64,000 bases of DNA from Pseudomonas karstica. GTDB taxonomy: Bacteria > Pseudomonadota > Gammaproteobacteria > Pseudomonadales > Pseudomonadaceae. Position numbers and translations under genes: made by a program. The notes under the pieces are model-generated. The model worked only from the letters and a program-made list of their open reading frames with translations, did not search any database and was not told the origin of the DNA. Below are positions 30,484-42,112 of this stretch, piece by piece. How positions within the stretch are numbered: the stretch's first letter is position 1; the number at the start of each line of letters is the position of its first letter. The stretch covers positions 1 to 64,000 of the forward strand of contig NZ_WLYI01000032.1 of NCBI RefSeq assembly GCF_009707515.1, read 5' to 3'.

Positions 30484-30491
30484 CCTGCAAC

Positions 30492-31220
30492 AAGGGCCGA
30501 AGGACCTTCAACAATCTCAAAGCCCCAGGCGACTGCTGCGCAGCCGATCGCAGGCTACGCCAGCGGCTACAGTTGATCGGTGATCCTTTGTAGCCGCTGT
30601 CGAGGCACGAGGCTGCGATAAGGGCCGAAGGGCCTTCAGCAATTTCAAAACCCAGACGACTGCTACGCAGCCGATCGCAGGCTACGCCAGCGGCTACAGT
30701 TGATCGGTGATCGGCTTTTGTAGCCGCTGTCGAGGCACGAGGCTGCGATAAGGGCCGAAGGACCTTCAGCAATTTCAAAACCCAGACGACTGCTACGCAG
30801 TCGATCGCAGGCTACGCCAGCGGCTACAAGTGATCACTGATCGGCTTTTGTAGCCGCTGTCGAGGCACGAGGCTGCGATAAGGGCCGCAGGACCTTCAAC
30901 AATCTCAAAGCCCCAAACGACTGCTGCGCAGCCGATCGCAGGCTGCGCCAGCGGCTACAAGTGATCACTGATCGGCTTTTGTAGCCGCTGTCGAGGCACG
31001 AGGCTGCGATAAGGGCCGAAGGACCTTCAGCAATTTCAAAACCCAGACGACTGCTACGCAGTCGATCGCAGGCTGCGCCAGCGGCTACAAGTGATCACTG
31101 ATCGGCTTTTGTAGCCGCTGTCGAGGCACGAGGCTGCGATAAGGGCCGCAGGACCTTCAACAATCTCAAAGCCCCAAACGACTGCTGCGCAGCCGATCGC
31201 AGGCTGCGCCAGCGGCTACA
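30492..31220. repeat. Tandem array of six REPIN-like units, 130-base period
   Basis: One truncated unit (30492-30571) and five complete units, whose left ends start at about 30589, 30719, 30849, 30980 and 31110, repeat every 130-131 bases. Each unit is about 110 bases with terminal inverted repeats TGTAGCCGCTG and CAGCGGCTACA and an internal hairpin. Linkers of about 20 bases contain TGATCACTGATCGGC. The stretch contains no supported gene. Its right end supplies the stop codon of the vWA part of chlD. Confidence 0.93.
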
Positions 31221-31877
31221 AGTCATCGATATGCCGATAATCAACCTGTAACCCGGCAGCCAGCTCCCGCGCTCGACCCAATCGAATCGGCCCGCGTTCG
31301 ATATCCACCAATAACCCCGGGCAGTCCAGCAGTGGCAGCCCAGCTACATCCTTAAGTCGTCCATCCGTGATCACCAGCAACCGCTGCTGCTCCGCCGGAT
31401 AGCCTTTGCGTCGCGCTACCAGCCAATGCCTCGCCTCGCTCAACGCCGCCAATAATGGCGTACCACCGCCAGCTCCGAGCCCATCGAGCCAAGTGACCAA
31501 GCCTTTCGCCGCCTTCAGGCCTTGCACCTGCCACTTGGGTGACTGCCCGCTGGCCGTCAACAACGCCATCCGCGCCCGCTGCCGGTAGGCATCATCAAAC
31601 AGCTGTGCCAGCAAGCCCTTGGCATCCCTCAGCGCCTGATGCCGCCGAGTAGACGCCGACGCATCGACCACCACCAGCCACAATTCGTGGGGCGAACGGC
31701 TGCGCAGTCGATACAGCAAGTCTTCACGGCGCTGTGGCCGCCCGCCCAACAAGGTGCCGGGCCAGTTGACCGTACCTTCGGCGGCGGCGTATGCCTGCCC
31801 TTGCCTGCCCTTGTCCAGTCGGCCCGCCTTGGGCCGGGCATCCGCCCCCGCGTCAGGTCGAGGGCGAATGCCTAGGG
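31216..31877 (-). CDS. chlD: von Willebrand A domain portion of chlD, reached by -1 frameshift
   Basis: This reading frame carries a vWA domain: LWLVVVDASASTRRHQAL (MIDAS motif D-x-S-x-S), then GGGTPLLAALSEARHWLV and LLVITDGRLKDV. That is the C-terminal half of magnesium-chelatase-D-like subunits that pair with CobN. Upstream of the first possible start (TTG 31752) the frame stays open with coding-like sequence (KGRQGQAYAAAEGTVNWPG) and no ATG or GTG back to the chlI end. The frame is -1 relative to chlI. It is best read as the extension of chlI, giving a 551-residue ChlD. The stop TAG at 31216-31218 lies in the repeat array. Confidence 0.78.
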
Positions 31878-32870
31878 CTTTTTTGGCCAGGTGGGAAGTT
31901 CTCGCCGAGCGCCCACCGGCATCGCTGGCGCAGGCATATCACCCCACTGGCCCTGGCCCGGCGAGGGGTCAAGCGGTTTTGTTGATTGGCCGCCACTGTG
32001 CGGAGTGACCGGTGGGGAATGTTCCTGACGCCGATGCCGCAGGGCGAACTCCGCCACCGCGTCGATATCTTCTTCACTGATGGCCCTTGCCCCACGCCAT
32101 GCCGCATGCGCCCTGGCGCCCCGCAGCCAGACCAGGTCGGCACGCAAGCCGTCGACGCCGGCGGCAAAGCAACGCTCGGTGATCTGCGCCAAAGCCTGGT
32201 CATCCAGCGGGATGCTTTCCAGCAGTGCGCGTGCCTCGGTGCAGCGCTCGCGCAACGCACTCTGCGGATCGGCCCATTGTGAGCAGAAACCCTGAGGGTC
32301 GCTGTCAAAATCCAGCCGGCGACGAATGATCTGCACACGCTCGGCAGGCAGCGTCTGCCCACTCAGCACAACGTTGAAACCAAAACGGTCGAGCAGTTGC
32401 GGGCGCAGCTCGCCCTCTTCCGGGTTCATGGTGCCGATCAGCACAAAACGCGCCGAATGCCGGTGGGAAATACCGTCGCGCTCAATCAGGTTGGTGCCGC
32501 TGGCGGCCACATCCAGCAGCAGGTCCACCAGGTGGTCCGCCAGCAGGTTGACTTCATCGACATACAGCACGCCGCCATCGGCCTTGGCCAACACACCGGG
32601 GGAAAACTGCGCCCGGCCCTCGCCCAGCGCGGCGTCCAGATCGAGAGTGCCCACCAGGCGCTCTTCGGTGGCGCCCAGGGGCAGCGTGACGAACTGCCCG
32701 CTGGCCAACACGTCCGCCAGGCCGCGGGCCAGGGTGGACTTGGCCATGCCACGAGGGCCTTCAATCAGCACACCGCCGATTTTCGGGTCGATGGCGGTCA
32801 GGCACAGGGCCAGTTTCAGCGCATCGGCACCGACGATCGCGGACAACGGGAAATGGGGGGTATCGTTCAT
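31872..32870 (-). CDS. Cobalt chelatase small subunit, ChlI/BchI-like AAA+ ATPase
   Basis: An AAA+ ATPase of 332 residues. Walker A is VLIEGPRGMAKSTLARGLADVL (about residues 34-55), Walker B VLYVDEVNLL (about 101-110), with the sensor region HSARFVLIGTMNPEEGELRPQLLDRFG. In aerobic cobalamin synthesis, small and medium subunits with CobN insert Co2+ into hydrogenobyrinic acid a,c-diamide using ATP. Zero-frame translation ends PKKP at 31872; a -1 shift at 31878-31884 would extend it to the vWA domain. ATG 32870 begins MNDTPHFPLSAIVGADALK; upstream sequence is repeat-derived. It belongs with cobW-cobN, though a repeat lies between. Confidence 0.9.
   Translation of the reverse strand: MNDTPHFPLSAIVGADALKLALCLTAIDPKIGGVLIEGPRGMAKSTLARGLADVLASGQFVTLPLGATEERLVGTLDLDAALGEGRAQFSPGVLAKADGGVLYVDEVNLLADHLVDLLLDVAASGTNLIERDGISHRHSARFVLIGTMNPEEGELRPQLLDRFGFNVVLSGQTLPAERVQIIRRRLDFDSDPQGFCSQWADPQSALRERCTEARALLESIPLDDQALAQITERCFAAGVDGLRADLVWLRGARAHAAWRGARAISEEDIDAVAEFALRHRRQEHSPPVTPHSGGQSTKPLDPSPGQGQWGDMPAPAMPVGARRELPTWPKKP
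31878..31884 (-). promoter_or_regulatory. Slippery heptamer A_AAA_AAG for -1 ribosomal frameshifting
   Basis: In the chlI frame the codons are CCA AAA AAG CCC TAG, so the heptamer A AAA AAG, the same as the E. coli dnaX site, comes one codon before the stop. A -1 slip joins chlI to the vWA frame. A GC-rich stem of CGGCCC and GGGCCG with loop AAGGC follows at 31836-31820, about 41 bases downstream. This is further than usual, so its role as a stimulator is uncertain. Programmed frameshifting in chlD to make two cobalt-chelatase subunits has been reported in the literature. Confidence 0.75.
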
Positions 32871-32998: not shown

Positions 32999-35900
32999 TC
33001 AGCCCTCTTCTTCTATGTCCAGCAACAAATTTTCTAATGCCTCGCGATACGTCCCTGGCTCCTGCCACAGGCCGCGCTGCTGAGCTTCCAGCATGCGTTC
33101 AGCCATATCCCGCAAGGCGGCCGGGTTATGCTGTTGCACAAACTCGCGGGTGTCAGGATCCAGTAAATAAGCATCGGCCAGCAACGCATACTGATGATCA
33201 TCGATCAGCGCCGTGGTGGCGTCGAAGGCAAACAGGTTGTCCACTGTAGCGGCCATCTCGAACGCGCCTTTGTAGCCGTGACGCTTGACGCCTTCGATCC
33301 ACTTGGGGTTGGCCGCCCGGGCACGGATCACCCGGTTCAGCTCTTCCTTCAAGGTGCGGATTTTCGGCAGGTCTGGCTGGCTGTGATCGCCGTGATAACT
33401 GGCGACTTTATCGCCACTCAGGGTTTCCACGGCAGCGAGCATGCCGCCCTGGAACTGGTAGTAATCGTTGGAATCGAGCAGGTCATGCTCGCGGTTGTCC
33501 TGGTTCTGCAACACCGCCTGGACCTGGCTCAAACGCTGCGCAAACTGTTCACGGGCAGCGGTGCCTTCATCACCGCCGCCATAGGCATAGCCGCCCCAGT
33601 TGAGGTAGACCTCGGCCAGGTCTTCGCGGCTCTGCCACAGGCGACCGTCAATCGCACCTTGCACACCCGCGCCATAGGCCCCGGGCTTGGCACCGAAGAT
33701 CCTCCAGCCCGCCTGCTTCGCGGCGTCTTCCTCGTTCAAGCCGGACTGGCGCAGGGCTTCGCATTCGCTGCGCACTTTGGCGGCCAACGGGTTCATATCG
33801 GCTGGTTCATCCAGCGCGGCCACAGCGTGTACGGCAGCATCGAACAAACGGATCAGGTTGGCAAAGGCATCCCGGAAAAACCCCGATACCCGTAGCGTCA
33901 CATCCACACGCGGGCGATCCAGCAGGCTCAGGGGCAGGATTTCAAAGTCATCCACCCGCTGGCTGCCAGTGGCCCACACCGGGCGTACGCCCATCAGCGC
34001 CATGGCCTGGGCAATATCGTCACCACCGGTACGCATGGTGGCGGTGCCCCACACCGACAAGCCAAGCTGGCGCAGGTGGTCGCCGTGGTCCTGCAGATGC
34101 CGCTCAAGAATCAGGTTCGCCGACTGGAAACCAATACGCCAAGCGGTGGTGGTGGGCAGATTGCGCACATCCACCGAGAAAAAATTGCGCCCGGTAGGCA
34201 ACACATCCAGGCGCCCACGGCTGGGCGCCCCACTGGGACCGGCTGGCACGAAACGCCCGCACACGGCATCCAGCAAACCGCGCATCTCCGCCGGGCCGCA
34301 GGCATCCAGGCGCGGAGCGACGACCATCCGCAAACTCTCGATCACGCCCTTGACGTCCTGCCAACCCGGCTCTTCAAGCTGTTCGACCGCGCCCTCCAGG
34401 GACTGCTCGATCAAACGTGTGGCGTAGAGTTCCAGGCGTTCACGGGTGTCGCCCGCCGTGCGCCACAATTGTGGGTCGATCTTCTGCAGCACCCTCGGAC
34501 GGCGCCCAGCCCAAGGCTCGGCCAGGGCGCAATCCAGCGGGTCGAAACCCAGTTCGAAGGCCTTGGCCAGCACCCGCAGCAGGCTCGACTGCGGCCCACG
34601 GCCATCGCCTCGAGGGATGCGCAGCAAAGCCAGCAAGGTGTCGATACGCAAGCGGCCCACCGGCGACTCACCGAAGATATGCAGGCCGTCGCGGATCTGC
34701 GATTCCTTCAAGTCGCACAGATAAGTATCGAGGCGCGGCAGCCAGATGGCGGCATCGGCGGCGCTGTCGAGGTTGGCGTCCAGCGCCAGTTCCTGGTCGA
34801 TACGGGTTTCCCGCACCAACTTGAGAATATCCTTTTGCAGCTCTTGGGCACGCCGTGGATCAAGCAACTGCGCTTCGTAATACTCGTCCGCCAGCAGTTC
34901 CAGGTTGCGCAGCGGCCCGTAGGTTTCGGCACGGGTCAGTGGCGGCATCAGGTGGTCGATGATCACCGCCTGGGTGCGACGCTTGGCTTGGGCACCTTCG
35001 CCTGGATCGTTGACGATAAATGGATAGATATTCGGCAGCGGCCCCAGCAGCACGTCGGGCCAGCAGTTTTCGGAAAGCCCAACCCCTTTGCCTGGCAGCC
35101 ACTCCAGATTACCGTGCTTGCCAACGTGGATCACCGCGTGCGCGCCATAGGTCTGGCGCAGCCAGAAGTAGAACGCCAGGTAACCGTGGGGCGGCACCAA
35201 ATCCGGGTCGTGGTACACGGCGCTGGCATCCACCTGATAACCCCGGGCCGGCTGGATGCCGACAAAGGTCAGGCCAAAGCGCAAACCGGCGATCATCATG
35301 CGACCGTCACGGCACATCGGGTCGCTGTGAGGCGCGCCCCAACGCTCCAGCACCGCTTGGCGGTTGGCTTCGGGCAAGCGTTTGAACATTGCCTCGTAAT
35401 CGTCCAGCCCCAGGCTTTGATGGCAGGGGCGCAGGTCGAGGCCATCCGGATCATTCGTGACGCCACCTAACAGCTCTTGGATCAAGGCCGTGCCGCTGTC
35501 CGGCAACGCGTCAGCCAGCGGGTAGCCTTCAGCTTTTAACGCCCGCAGGATATTCAGCGCGGTTGCCGGGGTGTCAAGCCCAACGCCGTTGCCGATGCGA
35601 CCGTCTCGTGTCGGGTAGTTGGCGAGAATCAGTGCAACGCGCTTTTCGCCATTGGGTAACCGCGCCAGGTCTACCCAGCGTCGCGCCAGTTCGGCGACAA
35701 AGCCCATGCGCTCGGGTTGAGCCCGGTAGCACACCACGTCAGACTGGCTGCGCTCACTGCGCCAGGCCAAGTCCTTGAAGCTGATCGGGCGGCTGATGAT
35801 CCGCCCGTCCAGCTCCGGCAAGGCAATGTGCATCGCCAGATCGCGCGGGCCAAGGCCTTGCTCGCTGGCTTGCCAGCCCGACTCGTTATCCTGGGCGCAG

Positions 35901-36772
35901 ATGGCCTGGATCACCGGGACATTGCGGCGAAATGGTCGCAGGTGCGGCGCTTCAGGACTGGATTGGGCAAAGCCGGTGGTGTTGAGAATCACCGAGGCTT
36001 GCACCTCGTCCAGCCAATCCTCGACCAACATCAGGCAGCCGGGCTCTTTCAGGCTGGCCACCGCAATGGGCAGTGGGTTGAGCCCTGCGGCCTGCAAGCG
36101 CTGGCAGAACACATCGATAAACGCCGTGTTGGCCGCCTGCAAGTGAGAGCGGTAGAACAGCACGGCTGCCACCGGATTTTCAGCCTGCCAGTCGGCCTGC
36201 CAATCACCCAGGCTGGCATTGGCTTTATGTGGATGATAAATCGCCGTGCGCGGCAAGCTCTGTGGCTCGCCCCAGGGGTAGTCGCGTCCCAGGTAGCGCG
36301 TGGCCAGGCAACGGTAAAAGTTCAGGGCGTTGCCCAGGCCGCCTTGGCGCAGGAAGTGCCAGAGGCGGTCGCGTTCTTCGATGCCAACCGTGCTCAGGCC
36401 GCTGAGTTCCGGGTCTGGGCGATCATCACCCGGCACCAGAATCAGTTGCACGCCCCGCCCTGCCAACTCCACCAAACGTTCGATGCCATAACGCCAATAA
36501 CCGATCCCGCCGTGCAGCGAGATCAAGATGACTTTGGCATGGCGCAGCACTTCATCGACATACAAATCGACAGAGGCGTGGTTCTGCACCTGCATCGGGT
36601 TGGCCAGGCGCAGGCTCGGGTAGTTCTCAGGCAACTGCTGGAGCGCTTGGGCCAGCAACGCCAGGCTGGAGTCGCCACTGCACAGGACCACCAGGTCGGC
36701 CGGGGTTTGCCCAAGGTCGGCAATGTTGTCATCCGAAACAAAACCGCCGGGTTGAGTCCTGAGCAGGTGCAT
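32999..36772 (-). CDS. cobN: Cobaltochelatase subunit CobN
   Basis: The large subunit of the aerobic cobalt chelatase (class I, ATP-dependent), which binds hydrogenobyrinic acid a,c-diamide and performs Co2+ insertion, 1257 residues, the usual size. Motifs are [61 protein letters not shown] and [23 protein letters not shown], all hallmarks of CobN/BchH. The C-terminal part contains [17 protein letters not shown]. It begins 3 bases after the cobW stop and is followed by the chlI/D gene after a repeat. The cobalamin riboswitch ahead of cobW should control it. Confidence 0.96.
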   Translation of the reverse strand: [1257 protein letters not shown]

Positions 36773-36775
36773 GGC

Positions 36776-37843
36776 TTAAACGCTGAGCGCGGCGCGCAGT
36801 TGCGCTTCAAGCAGGCCGGCATCCAGCTCCTGGCCAATTAGCACCAGGTGGGTCGCGCGCGGTTCATCGGCACGCCATGCGCGGTCGAAGTGTTTGTCGA
36901 AACGGCTGCCCACGCCCTGGATCAGCAGGCGCATCGGTTTGTTGGGGATCGCCGCAAAACCCTTGACCCGCAGGATGCCGTGCTGGACCACCAATTGGGT
37001 CAGGGCATCGAGCAACAGGCTTTCGTCGGCCTGGGGCAGTTCGATGGAGATCGAATCGAAGGCATCGTGGTCGTGATCATGGTCATCTTCACCTTCATGA
37101 TGATGATCATGATGGCTGTGGCGGCCATCGATGTGCTCTTCGGAACCGGCACCCAGGCCAATCAACACATCCAGGGGCAAACGACCACTGCTGGCTTCGA
37201 TGACTTTCACCGCTGGCGGCAGTTCCTCGGTGACTTCCAGGCGCACCCGGGCCAGGTATTCGGGGCTGATCAGGTCGGTTTTGTTGAGAATCACCAGGTC
37301 GGCGCTGGCCAGTTGATCGGCGAACAGCTCGTGCAGCGGTGACTCGTGGTCCAGGTTCGGATCGAGTTTACGCATGGCGTCCACCTGATCCGGAAACGCA
37401 GCGAACGTACCTGCGGCCACGGCCGGGCTGTCGACCACAGTGATCACCGCGTCAACGGTGCAGGCGCTGCGAATTTCCGGCCACTGGAAGGCCTGGACCA
37501 AAGGCTTTGGCAAGGCCAGGCCCGAGGTTTCGATAAGGATGTGGTCGAGATCGCCGCGACGGGCCACCAATTCGCGCATTACCGGGAAGAACTCTTCCTG
37601 GACCGTGCAGCACAGGCAACCGTTGGCCAACTCGTAGACGCGGCCGCGGGCTTCTTCTTCCGTACAGCCGATTGCGCATTGCTTGAGGATTTCACCGTCA
37701 ATGCCCAACTCGCCAAACTCGTTGACGATCACCGCAATGCGGCGACCCTGGGCATTGTCGAGCATGTGGCGCAGCAAGGTGGTCTTGCCCGAACCGAGGA
37801 AGCCGGTAACGATGGTGACGGGGAGTTTGGCCAGTGTTTTCAT
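36776..37843 (-). CDS. cobW: CobW GTP-binding cobalt metallochaperone
   Basis: A G3E-family GTPase of 355 residues that supplies cobalt to the chelatase. The P-loop is GFLGSGKTTLL (about residues 14-24), the metal site is GCLCCTVQEEF (CxCC motif), and the switch region has ILIETSGLALPKPL. NKTD at about residue 190 is the G4 motif. A His/Asp-rich loop (HSHHDHHHEGEDDHDHDHD) lies before the C-terminal CobW_C domain. ATG 37843 was chosen because MKTLAKLPVTIVTGFLGSGK is the family N-terminus. It is the first gene of cobW-cobN-chlI/D under the minus-strand riboswitch. Confidence 0.95.
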   Translation of the reverse strand: MKTLAKLPVTIVTGFLGSGKTTLLRHMLDNAQGRRIAVIVNEFGELGIDGEILKQCAIGCTEEEARGRVYELANGCLCCTVQEEFFPVMRELVARRGDLDHILIETSGLALPKPLVQAFQWPEIRSACTVDAVITVVDSPAVAAGTFAAFPDQVDAMRKLDPNLDHESPLHELFADQLASADLVILNKTDLISPEYLARVRLEVTEELPPAVKVIEASSGRLPLDVLIGLGAGSEEHIDGRHSHHDHHHEGEDDHDHDHDAFDSISIELPQADESLLLDALTQLVVQHGILRVKGFAAIPNKPMRLLIQGVGSRFDKHFDRAWRADEPRATHLVLIGQELDAGLLEAQLRAALSV

Positions 37844-37952
37844 CGGATGCCCTTGGAGGCGGGCATACGGGACGACAGGCCCTGCGACGGTGCGCAGCAG
37901 CCCATTTCGCCACCGGATCACCCCGCCCGGTTGAAAGTTGAGAAACAGTTGC

Positions 37953-38140
37953 GAGGCAGGTCTCCTGGCTTAGGGCGTGCAGGTCCAGGGACCGGCGCTG
38001 ACTGCGCCTTCCCGCCTTGTTCAGGCAGTGGCGTGGCAGTCAGATAAACCCTTTACAGTTGCGGGGGCAGCCGCGGCATCGACCGCGTTCCCTTCTTAGC
38101 TTCGGCCTGGGCCGAAGAACCTCGAGGGTGCAAGGCTACA
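37953..38140 (-). ncRNA. Cobalamin riboswitch controlling cobW-cobN-chlI/D
   Basis: On the minus strand the core GCTGCCCCCGCAACTGTAA and the closing helix AAGCCAGGAGACCTGCCT (at about 37956-37973) are the conserved elements of the AdoCbl riboswitch. The 5' part starts near GCACCCTCGAGGTTC. The aptamer ends about 110 bases before the cobW ATG, leaving room for an expression platform that would shut the operon down when B12 is plentiful. Boundaries are approximate. Confidence 0.92.
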
Positions 38141-38192
38141 GGGGCTCAGTCAATTTGACTACCGTCCCTCGCCCATGCTCTCCTACACATCT

Positions 38193-38380
38193 TGTTTCGG
38201 GTGCCCTTCACAGGGTGAAACGGGAAACCGGTGAGTCATGCGCGCATGATCAGTCCGGTGCTGCCCCCGCAACGGTAAGCGAGCGAAGCATCAGAGCCAC
38301 TGTGCCTACGGCATGGGAAGGCGATGCTTTTTGGATGCTTTTTCTACAAGCAGCCCCTCGCAAGCCCGGAGACCGGCCCG
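38193..38380 (+). ncRNA. Cobalamin riboswitch controlling cbtB-cbtA-cobE-cobM
   Basis: On the plus strand the aptamer begins TTTCGGGTGCCCTTCACAGG (about 38195) and has the core GTGCTGCCCCCGCAACGGTA near 38262-38281. It closes with CAAGCCCGGAGACCGGCC at about 38361-38378. It lies 112 bases before cbtB. Together with the minus-strand riboswitch only about 50 bases away it forms a divergent pair. Boundaries are approximate. Confidence 0.93.
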
Positions 38381-38491
38381 AAAAAACCAGATAACAAACC
38401 CGCGGTGGGCGGGCGCTGTTAAGACTCTGCGTGCCCGGCTCGCAGGGCTTTCATGCGCTCGTTTCACCCTGACACTCGAAAGGGACGCGCC

Positions 38492-41419: not shown

Positions 41420-42112
41420 TTTGGGGGGTGGGGTTGGGGGGGCATATCCGTTGCTGCGGTTACGGCTGCGTATGGTTCCGCCCTTACGGCGGGTCACTTT
41501 CGAAAAGCGCGAAAGTAACCAAAGCGCTCTTGCCCCAACACTCGGTGCCTCGCCTAGGCTCGGCATGCCCGAACGCAGGCATTACTCCGTGGGCCGCCGC
41601 GACGGGCCATCCATGGCCCAACACGGCTAAACCGGCGTCCTGCCGGTTTGCCCACTGCGTAATACCTGCGTTCGGCCAGCGTGGTTTAACGGGGCGCCTA
41701 GATCAAAAACAGAGCAAAAGCGAGGCGGCCTGACAGCCGACCTATCCTCTGAAGCGTACGCGCTGTTGCTCTTGCCCTGACGTCCTTATTCGCTGACGAA
41801 GTCAGCACTCTCTTGATCTGGCTGTTGATCTTGATCTAGGCGCCCCGTTAAACCACGATGGCCGGAGTCCGGCATTGATTCGGGGGGTAAACCGGCAGGA
41901 CGCCGGTTTAGCCGCACTGGGCCAGGGATGGCCCATTGCGGCGGCCCCCCGGATCAATGTCGGACTGCGGGCATGCCGAGCCACAGCGAGGCACCAAGTG
42001 GTGGGGCAAGAGCCCTTTGCTTACTTTGGGGCTTTTCCAAAGTGAGTCGCTGTAAAAGCGAAACCAATAGCCGCCGTGACCGCAGCAACGGATATGCCCC
42101 CAATCCCACCCC
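41420..42112. repeat. Large imperfect palindrome of two roughly 300-base repeat copies
   Basis: The left arm (about 41420-41730) and right arm (about 41822-42112) are inverted copies. Shared landmarks include CATATCCGTTGCTGCGGT, CTCTTGCCCCA, CTCGGCATGCCC, TAAACCGGCGTCCTGCCGGT and GTTTAACGGGGCGCCTAGAT, interrupted by mismatches. The spacer of about 90 bases holds a separate inverted segment. Each arm has its own hairpin (ACCGGCGTCCTGCCGGT). The gene-free stretch 41334-42122 is almost wholly this element; open frames in it are not supported as genes. Confidence 0.88.

Follow-up and report, generated by a model that had tools for sequence, protein, structure and literature searches.

The contig NZ_WLYI01000032.1 of Pseudomonas karstica, of which the first 64,000 nucleotides were analysed (the window), carries a chlI-like gene that ends in a stop codon shortly after a run of six adenines, while a vWA domain is encoded in the -1 frame across the same junction. 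This raises the question whether the two halves are separate genes or a single one that is decoded in two ways. We consider it very probable (about 0.95) from the sequence evidence that chlI and the vWA half belong to a single gene which is decoded through programmed -1 ribosomal frameshifting. We favour this because the slip site is conserved, a hairpin covaries at canonical spacing, relatives share no independent start for the vWA half, the element co-occurs with CobN, and reporter data are published for homologues. The phenomenon as such is already known, as a programmed -1 frameshift has been described for chlD in Pseudomonas. The sequence-only reading of this locus had stated that chlD frameshifting is reported to yield two cobalt-chelatase subunits, and such a mechanism is indeed described in the literature for this gene (PMC3711429, PMC5009743 and PMC9227772).

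Most of what had been described from the letters alone could be confirmed. On the minus strand, the reading frame of chlI ends with CCA AAA AAG CCC TAG, which places the heptamer in the phase known from dnaX, and translation together with a Pfam search confirmed a -1 frame that stays open for 220 codons and contains a vWA domain. The proposed product sizes are correct, with 332 residues for unshifted translation and 551 residues (331 + 220) after a -1 shift. It is also correct that TTG 31752 is the first ATG, GTG or TTG of the -1 frame after the preceding stop codon. In the ChlI product, the Pfam domains AAA_lid_2, AAA_5 and Mg_chelatase all score over their cut-offs, and its top NCBIfam matches are TIGR02442 and TIGR02030, each under its cut-off; it contains the sequence GPRGMAKST, which we take to be a Walker-like motif. 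The vWA part matches VWA_2 over cut-off (residues 68-173, counted in the -1 part) and contains DASAS, presumably a MIDAS-like motif. One counterpoint to the frameshift reading is that the joined 551-residue protein reaches only 466.6 bits against TIGR02442, a single-chain model for a putative cobaltochelatase with a curated cut-off of 779.45, although this is still its best NCBIfam match. Coordinates of all features are given in Table 1.

Table 1. Features of the chlI/vWA locus and its upstream neighbourhood in the window.
Feature	Positions	Strand	Basis
Product of the zero frame, a ChlI-like AAA+ subunit of 332 aa; TAG stop at 31874-31872	31872..32870	-	translation and Pfam
Slippery heptamer A_AAA_AAG in dnaX-type phase (CCA AAA AAG CCC TAG)	31878..31884	-	sequence; AAAAAAG in 79 of 80 named relatives
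Spacer of 5 nt from heptamer to hairpin, ending in the T and A of the TAG stop	31873..31877	-	
Putative stimulatory hairpin, 5' arm (14 bp)	31859..31872	-	folding; covariation
Putative stimulatory hairpin, 3' arm; the 8-nt loop 31851-31858 lies between the arms	31837..31850	-	folding; covariation; covariance-model match
-1 frame continuation with linker and vWA domain, 220 codons and stop (31218-31216)	31216..31878	-	translation; Pfam VWA_2
Longest vWA ORF with an ATG, GTG or TTG start (TTG); not favoured as an independent gene	31216..31752	-	no start common to relatives there
cobN, cobaltochelatase large subunit, upstream	32999..36772	-	TIGR02257, 1729.8 bits (cut-off 822.05)
cobW ORF directly upstream of cobN	36776..37921	-	TIGR02475, 524.3 bits (cut-off 332.1), beginning at residue 31
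Cobalamin riboswitch in front of cobW, cobN and chlI/D	37938..38139	-	Rfam RF00174, 112.5 bits

In one respect the sequence-only reading has to be corrected. It had described the slippery site as being without a close downstream hairpin, but a stem of 14 bp (31872-31859 pairing with 31850-31837) starts 5 nt past the heptamer, and its first pair includes the G of the TAG stop codon. This correction strengthens the frameshift reading, and the lone odd feature noted at the site is gone. The 60 nt from the heptamer onward fold with -32.3 kcal/mol, a z of -3.35 relative to dinucleotide shuffles (-21.9 +/- 3.1), of which 2 of 200 are as stable. A second counterpoint is that the window's own hairpin is ordinary when compared to synonymous-codon controls, nine of 100 of which are as stable, and it is thus unremarkable if taken alone. 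When 119 distinct heptamer-bearing cassettes were treated in this way, the mean z was -1.96, and at most 5 of 100 controls were as stable in 67 of them. Folded singly, 117 of these 119 show a longest stem of 6 bp or more that begins 3-9 nt past the heptamer, the exceptions being loci L178 and L187. At some -1-frame sites within the hairpin only a single codon is used (GGC for Gly in 116 of 116, GAT for Asp in 98 of 98).

Covariation was analysed in a gap-free alignment of 68 cassettes from the genus, which were hand-picked from 102 distinct ones. Of those omitted, 22 closely resemble retained cassettes, while 12 appeared to have a different arm length or to be too distant (L138, L150, L153, L160, L170, L173, L176, L177, L178, L182, L183 and L187). 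Six of the 14 pairs have changed on both sides and four are invariant. The clearest case is the pair of columns 18 and 43, which is C-G in 36 sequences, U-G in 18 and U-A in 14. None of 500 shuffles, which do not preserve the relatedness of the sequences, reaches the covariation score of the hairpin. In the alignment, 90.8% of the cells pair, a value that is biased upward by the omission of the 12 unusual cassettes, compared to 35.5-51.5% in slid controls. The RNAalifold consensus has eight pairs, namely the lower six of the 14 plus two upper ones in another register, which indicates a fixed lower stem and a variable upper one.

The sequence-only reading had proposed to align the junction across Pseudomonas genomes, and the result supports it. 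In 80 named loci, which were retrieved via the vWA part and not selected for the heptamer, AAAAAAG is present in 79 (L102 among them bears a seventh A, and the remaining locus, L104, is one A short), and a TAG follows one codon on in all 80. Such recurrence in loci not selected for the heptamer is not due to chance. Nor is the uniform CCA AAA AAG expected from codon usage, as CCA and AAA are minority codons in the ChlI body (240 of 2078 Pro and 78 of 359 Lys codons in 136 loci). The slip-site codons of these 136 loci are themselves no evidence because the set was chosen for the heptamer; the counts over 119, 136 and 142 distinct loci all refer to heptamer-bearing loci only. Counting same-genome duplicates as well, 164 of 175 loci carry the heptamer in phase. 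Where the heptamer-bearing loci have their stop at the codon found here, it is TAG in 115 of 135, TGA in 18 and TAA in two; in L132, the stop comes six codons later than usual. TAG is the least used stop codon in Pseudomonas, and its prevalence past the heptamer may be explained by shared descent.

Of 298 genomes of the genus, 277 have a match to the vWA part (E<=1e-20). When heptamer and hairpin were combined in a covariance model, 282 of the 298 had a match at E<=0.01, wherever the match falls, a count in which the genomes behind the 68 training sequences match by construction. At E<=1e-6 there are 272 genomes with a match, all of them within the 277 having the vWA part. Among the five that differ, three (G146, G148 and G161, with loci L176, L178 and L177) have AAAAAAG in phase followed by a different downstream sequence, G076 has the vWA part without a model match, and G080 (L175; 86% complete) reads AGAAAAG and has an interrupted ChlI. 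Irregularities are also seen elsewhere: in G034 (L126/L154) the ChlI match is fragmented upstream but the model still matches at the junction; in G052 and G129 the vWA match is in two pieces, yet the model match is present; and L173 has a frame change past the cassette. The cassette of P. karstica matches at 31835-31884 (E 4.6e-23). In a search of its genome for a second cassette, the true site scores 74.6 bits, followed by its own reverse complement with 21.3 bits and other matches with at most 20.5 bits.

Outside the genus, a vWA match at E<=1e-10 occurs in 10 of 273 sampled genomes from the class. Six of these relatives are single-frame fusions (L180, L181, L184, L185, L186 and L188), which like the shifted product have an AAA+ part followed by a vWA part; in these fused ChlD-like proteins one frame spans both parts, unlike the split frames of P. 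karstica. The other four are -1 overlaps with an A-run, which is A6G in L187, A7G in L182 and L183 (from one genus) and A10G in L179.

Three other explanations for the split frame were weighed and rejected. RNA polymerase might stutter on the six As, so that part of the mRNAs carry an insertion or deletion which joins the frames. The junction does contain an A-run, bacterial transcriptional slippage is described for runs of nine As or Ts (2016 review, PMC5009743), and the distant relative L179 has ten As. However, the run has just six As here, and it is AAAAAAG in nearly all of the 80 named loci. Furthermore, conservation extends to the X_XXY_YYZ phase, to a G as the seventh base and to a hairpin located 5-6 nt downstream, none of which is needed for polymerase slippage, and we regard this explanation as very unlikely. 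A pseudogene or a sequencing error that splits a fused chlD would agree with the six single-frame homologues among the ten distant relatives and with the broken frames in a few genomes (L104, L126, L173 and L175). In our view, it is refuted by the genus-wide conservation: the same junction recurs in 79 of 80 loci, 272 of the 277 genomes that have a vWA part match the model at E<=1e-6, and the structure covaries. We attribute practically no probability to it.

The vWA half might also be translated separately, either from TTG 31752 or by coupled re-initiation past the TAG. A start at this TTG would retain the entire Pfam vWA match, and in 75 of 142 distinct heptamer-bearing loci an ATG, GTG or TTG is found 23 codons upstream in the open -1 frame. 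The counterpart of that codon in P. karstica is a GTG formed across CAG TGG, the Gln and Trp codons of ChlI in the overlapping frame, and a TGA follows it two codons on. Ahead of the shift, the -1 frame is open for just 20 codons, none of which is ATG, GTG or TTG. Such codons are missing between the upstream stop and residue 40 in 31 of the 142 loci, and ahead of residue 5 of the -1 part in 62. The purine-rich run nearest to TTG 31752, GAAGG, is 22 nt upstream of it, and two separate genes would leave heptamer and hairpin unexplained. We consider separate translation extremely unlikely and retain the frameshift reading.

Upstream of the locus, on the same strand, is cobN, and a search for a CobT match in the genome of P. 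karstica gave none, which bears on the proposed assignment of ChlI and the joined protein as small and medium subunits of a cobalt chelatase. With cobW further upstream, the true start of which is probably inside the ORF, the genes would form a single operon headed by a cobalamin riboswitch. This riboswitch (37938-38139, minus strand) is back to back with a divergent one (38182-38395, plus strand), with about 40 bp between them. Two TwoAYGGAY RNA matches in divergent orientation are located at 41556-41691 (minus) and 41851-41981 (plus), with 46.3 and 53.7 bits (gathering score 43). At the other side of the locus, just downstream of the vWA frame and overlapping its end by 12 bp, a tandem array (30485-31227) repeats a 130-bp unit about 5.7 times, with 92% matches.

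Co-occurrence with CobN is seen across the genus. A CobN match (E<=1e-50) is absent in 11 of the 298 genomes, and all 11 are within the 21 that lack a vWA match. In the other ten of the 21 (G288 being placed among them by elimination), six have only weaker CobN-family matches, while G027, G273, G284 and G288 have a full CobN. In G273, cobN is at a contig end, and in G284 ChlI is truncated by one. G027 and G288, which lack a match to the P. karstica vWA part, have a distant version of the locus with a 58% identical ChlI; when read by eye, it has AAAAAAG in phase one codon ahead of a TGA, and a vWA-like -1 frame. The six genomes with weaker matches (G060, G082, G180, G185, G242 and G260) have two of these each, with best E-values of 9.4e-68 to 9.8e-64, and no full CobN.

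The published system that corresponds to this locus is fs-chlD. An AAA+ ChlI ORF is followed by an overlapping vWA ORF in the -1 frame, A_AAA_AAR occurs in zero-frame phase just ahead of the zero-frame stop, a covarying 14-bp RNA structure is only 5 nt off, and the signal is conserved across species. Gene, genus, slip site, -1 direction, a near-identical hairpin sequence and two presumed cobalt-chelatase subunits are all shared, and we see no essential difference. A further paper (Antonov 2020, Mol Biol Evol) reportedly also deals with the fs-chlD frameshift. Antonov et al. (2013) grouped 23 magnesium-chelatase genes with a -1 frameshift into one cluster, Pseudomonas included, and found 63, 40 and 10% shift for three homologue cassettes in E. 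coli reporters; these contained 7, 9 and 11 As instead of A6G (PMC3711429). The 2016 review reports strong purifying selection on A_AAA_AAR in Pseudomonas and other genera and shows a P. protegens stem-loop that closely resembles the present hairpin (PMC5009743). Kuznetsov et al. (2022) assign P. aeruginosa to their stage 8, with a frameshifted chlD giving both cobalt-chelatase subunits (PMC9227772). The P. karstica copy is not individually named in the parts of these three papers on which we rely, and these parts hold no peptide or reporter evidence for it.

E. coli dnaX has the same heptamer in the same phase and likewise a stem-loop downstream, but its shift leads to a shorter product while the shift proposed here would lead to a longer one. 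The Shine-Dalgarno-like stimulator of dnaX is located about 10 nt ahead of the heptamer. In the mean anti-SD pairing profile of 136 loci, no clear or strong site of this kind is seen between positions -30 and -4, the best mean energy being -2.69 (background mean -0.81, 5% quantile -4.80). According to the 2016 review, dnaX has such an upstream element, and the reversed layout with a longer shifted product occurs in some dnaX genes (PMC5009743).

Based on these signals and on the homologues, we infer that ribosomes on A_AAA_AAG would pause at the hairpin. In some of them, tRNA-Lys would re-pair one base back and reading would continue in the -1 frame, giving a ChlD-like (medium) subunit that comprises the AAA+ domain, a linker and the vWA domain. 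The remaining ones would read CCC and stop at TAG to give the ChlI-like (small) subunit, the share of each depending on the slip efficiency. Both products, together with CobN from the same riboswitch-led cluster, would then serve cobalt insertion in aerobic B12 synthesis. The 2016 review raises regulation and cation binding via a possible triplex (PMC5009743). The 3' arm of the hairpin has a purine fraction of 0.65, with longest homopurine runs of 3 (12 of the 68 sequences), 5 (45), 6 (10) and 9 (one); as the run does not exceed 5 in 57 of 68 sequences, the triplex idea gets little support. We consider it unlikely that the cassette is a regulated switch, in which metal, B12 status or release-factor supply would alter the share of slipping ribosomes and thus the ChlI:ChlD ratio, on top of the riboswitch. 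In such a switch, the position of the stop-codon G in the first stem pair could couple termination to the opening of the hairpin in this gene.

For the published case of one gene that supplies two chelatase subunits, the present analysis adds support from covariation and genus-wide counts. If the locus is decoded as proposed, a gene caller that reports an independent vWA gene starting at TTG 31752 would annotate it wrongly.
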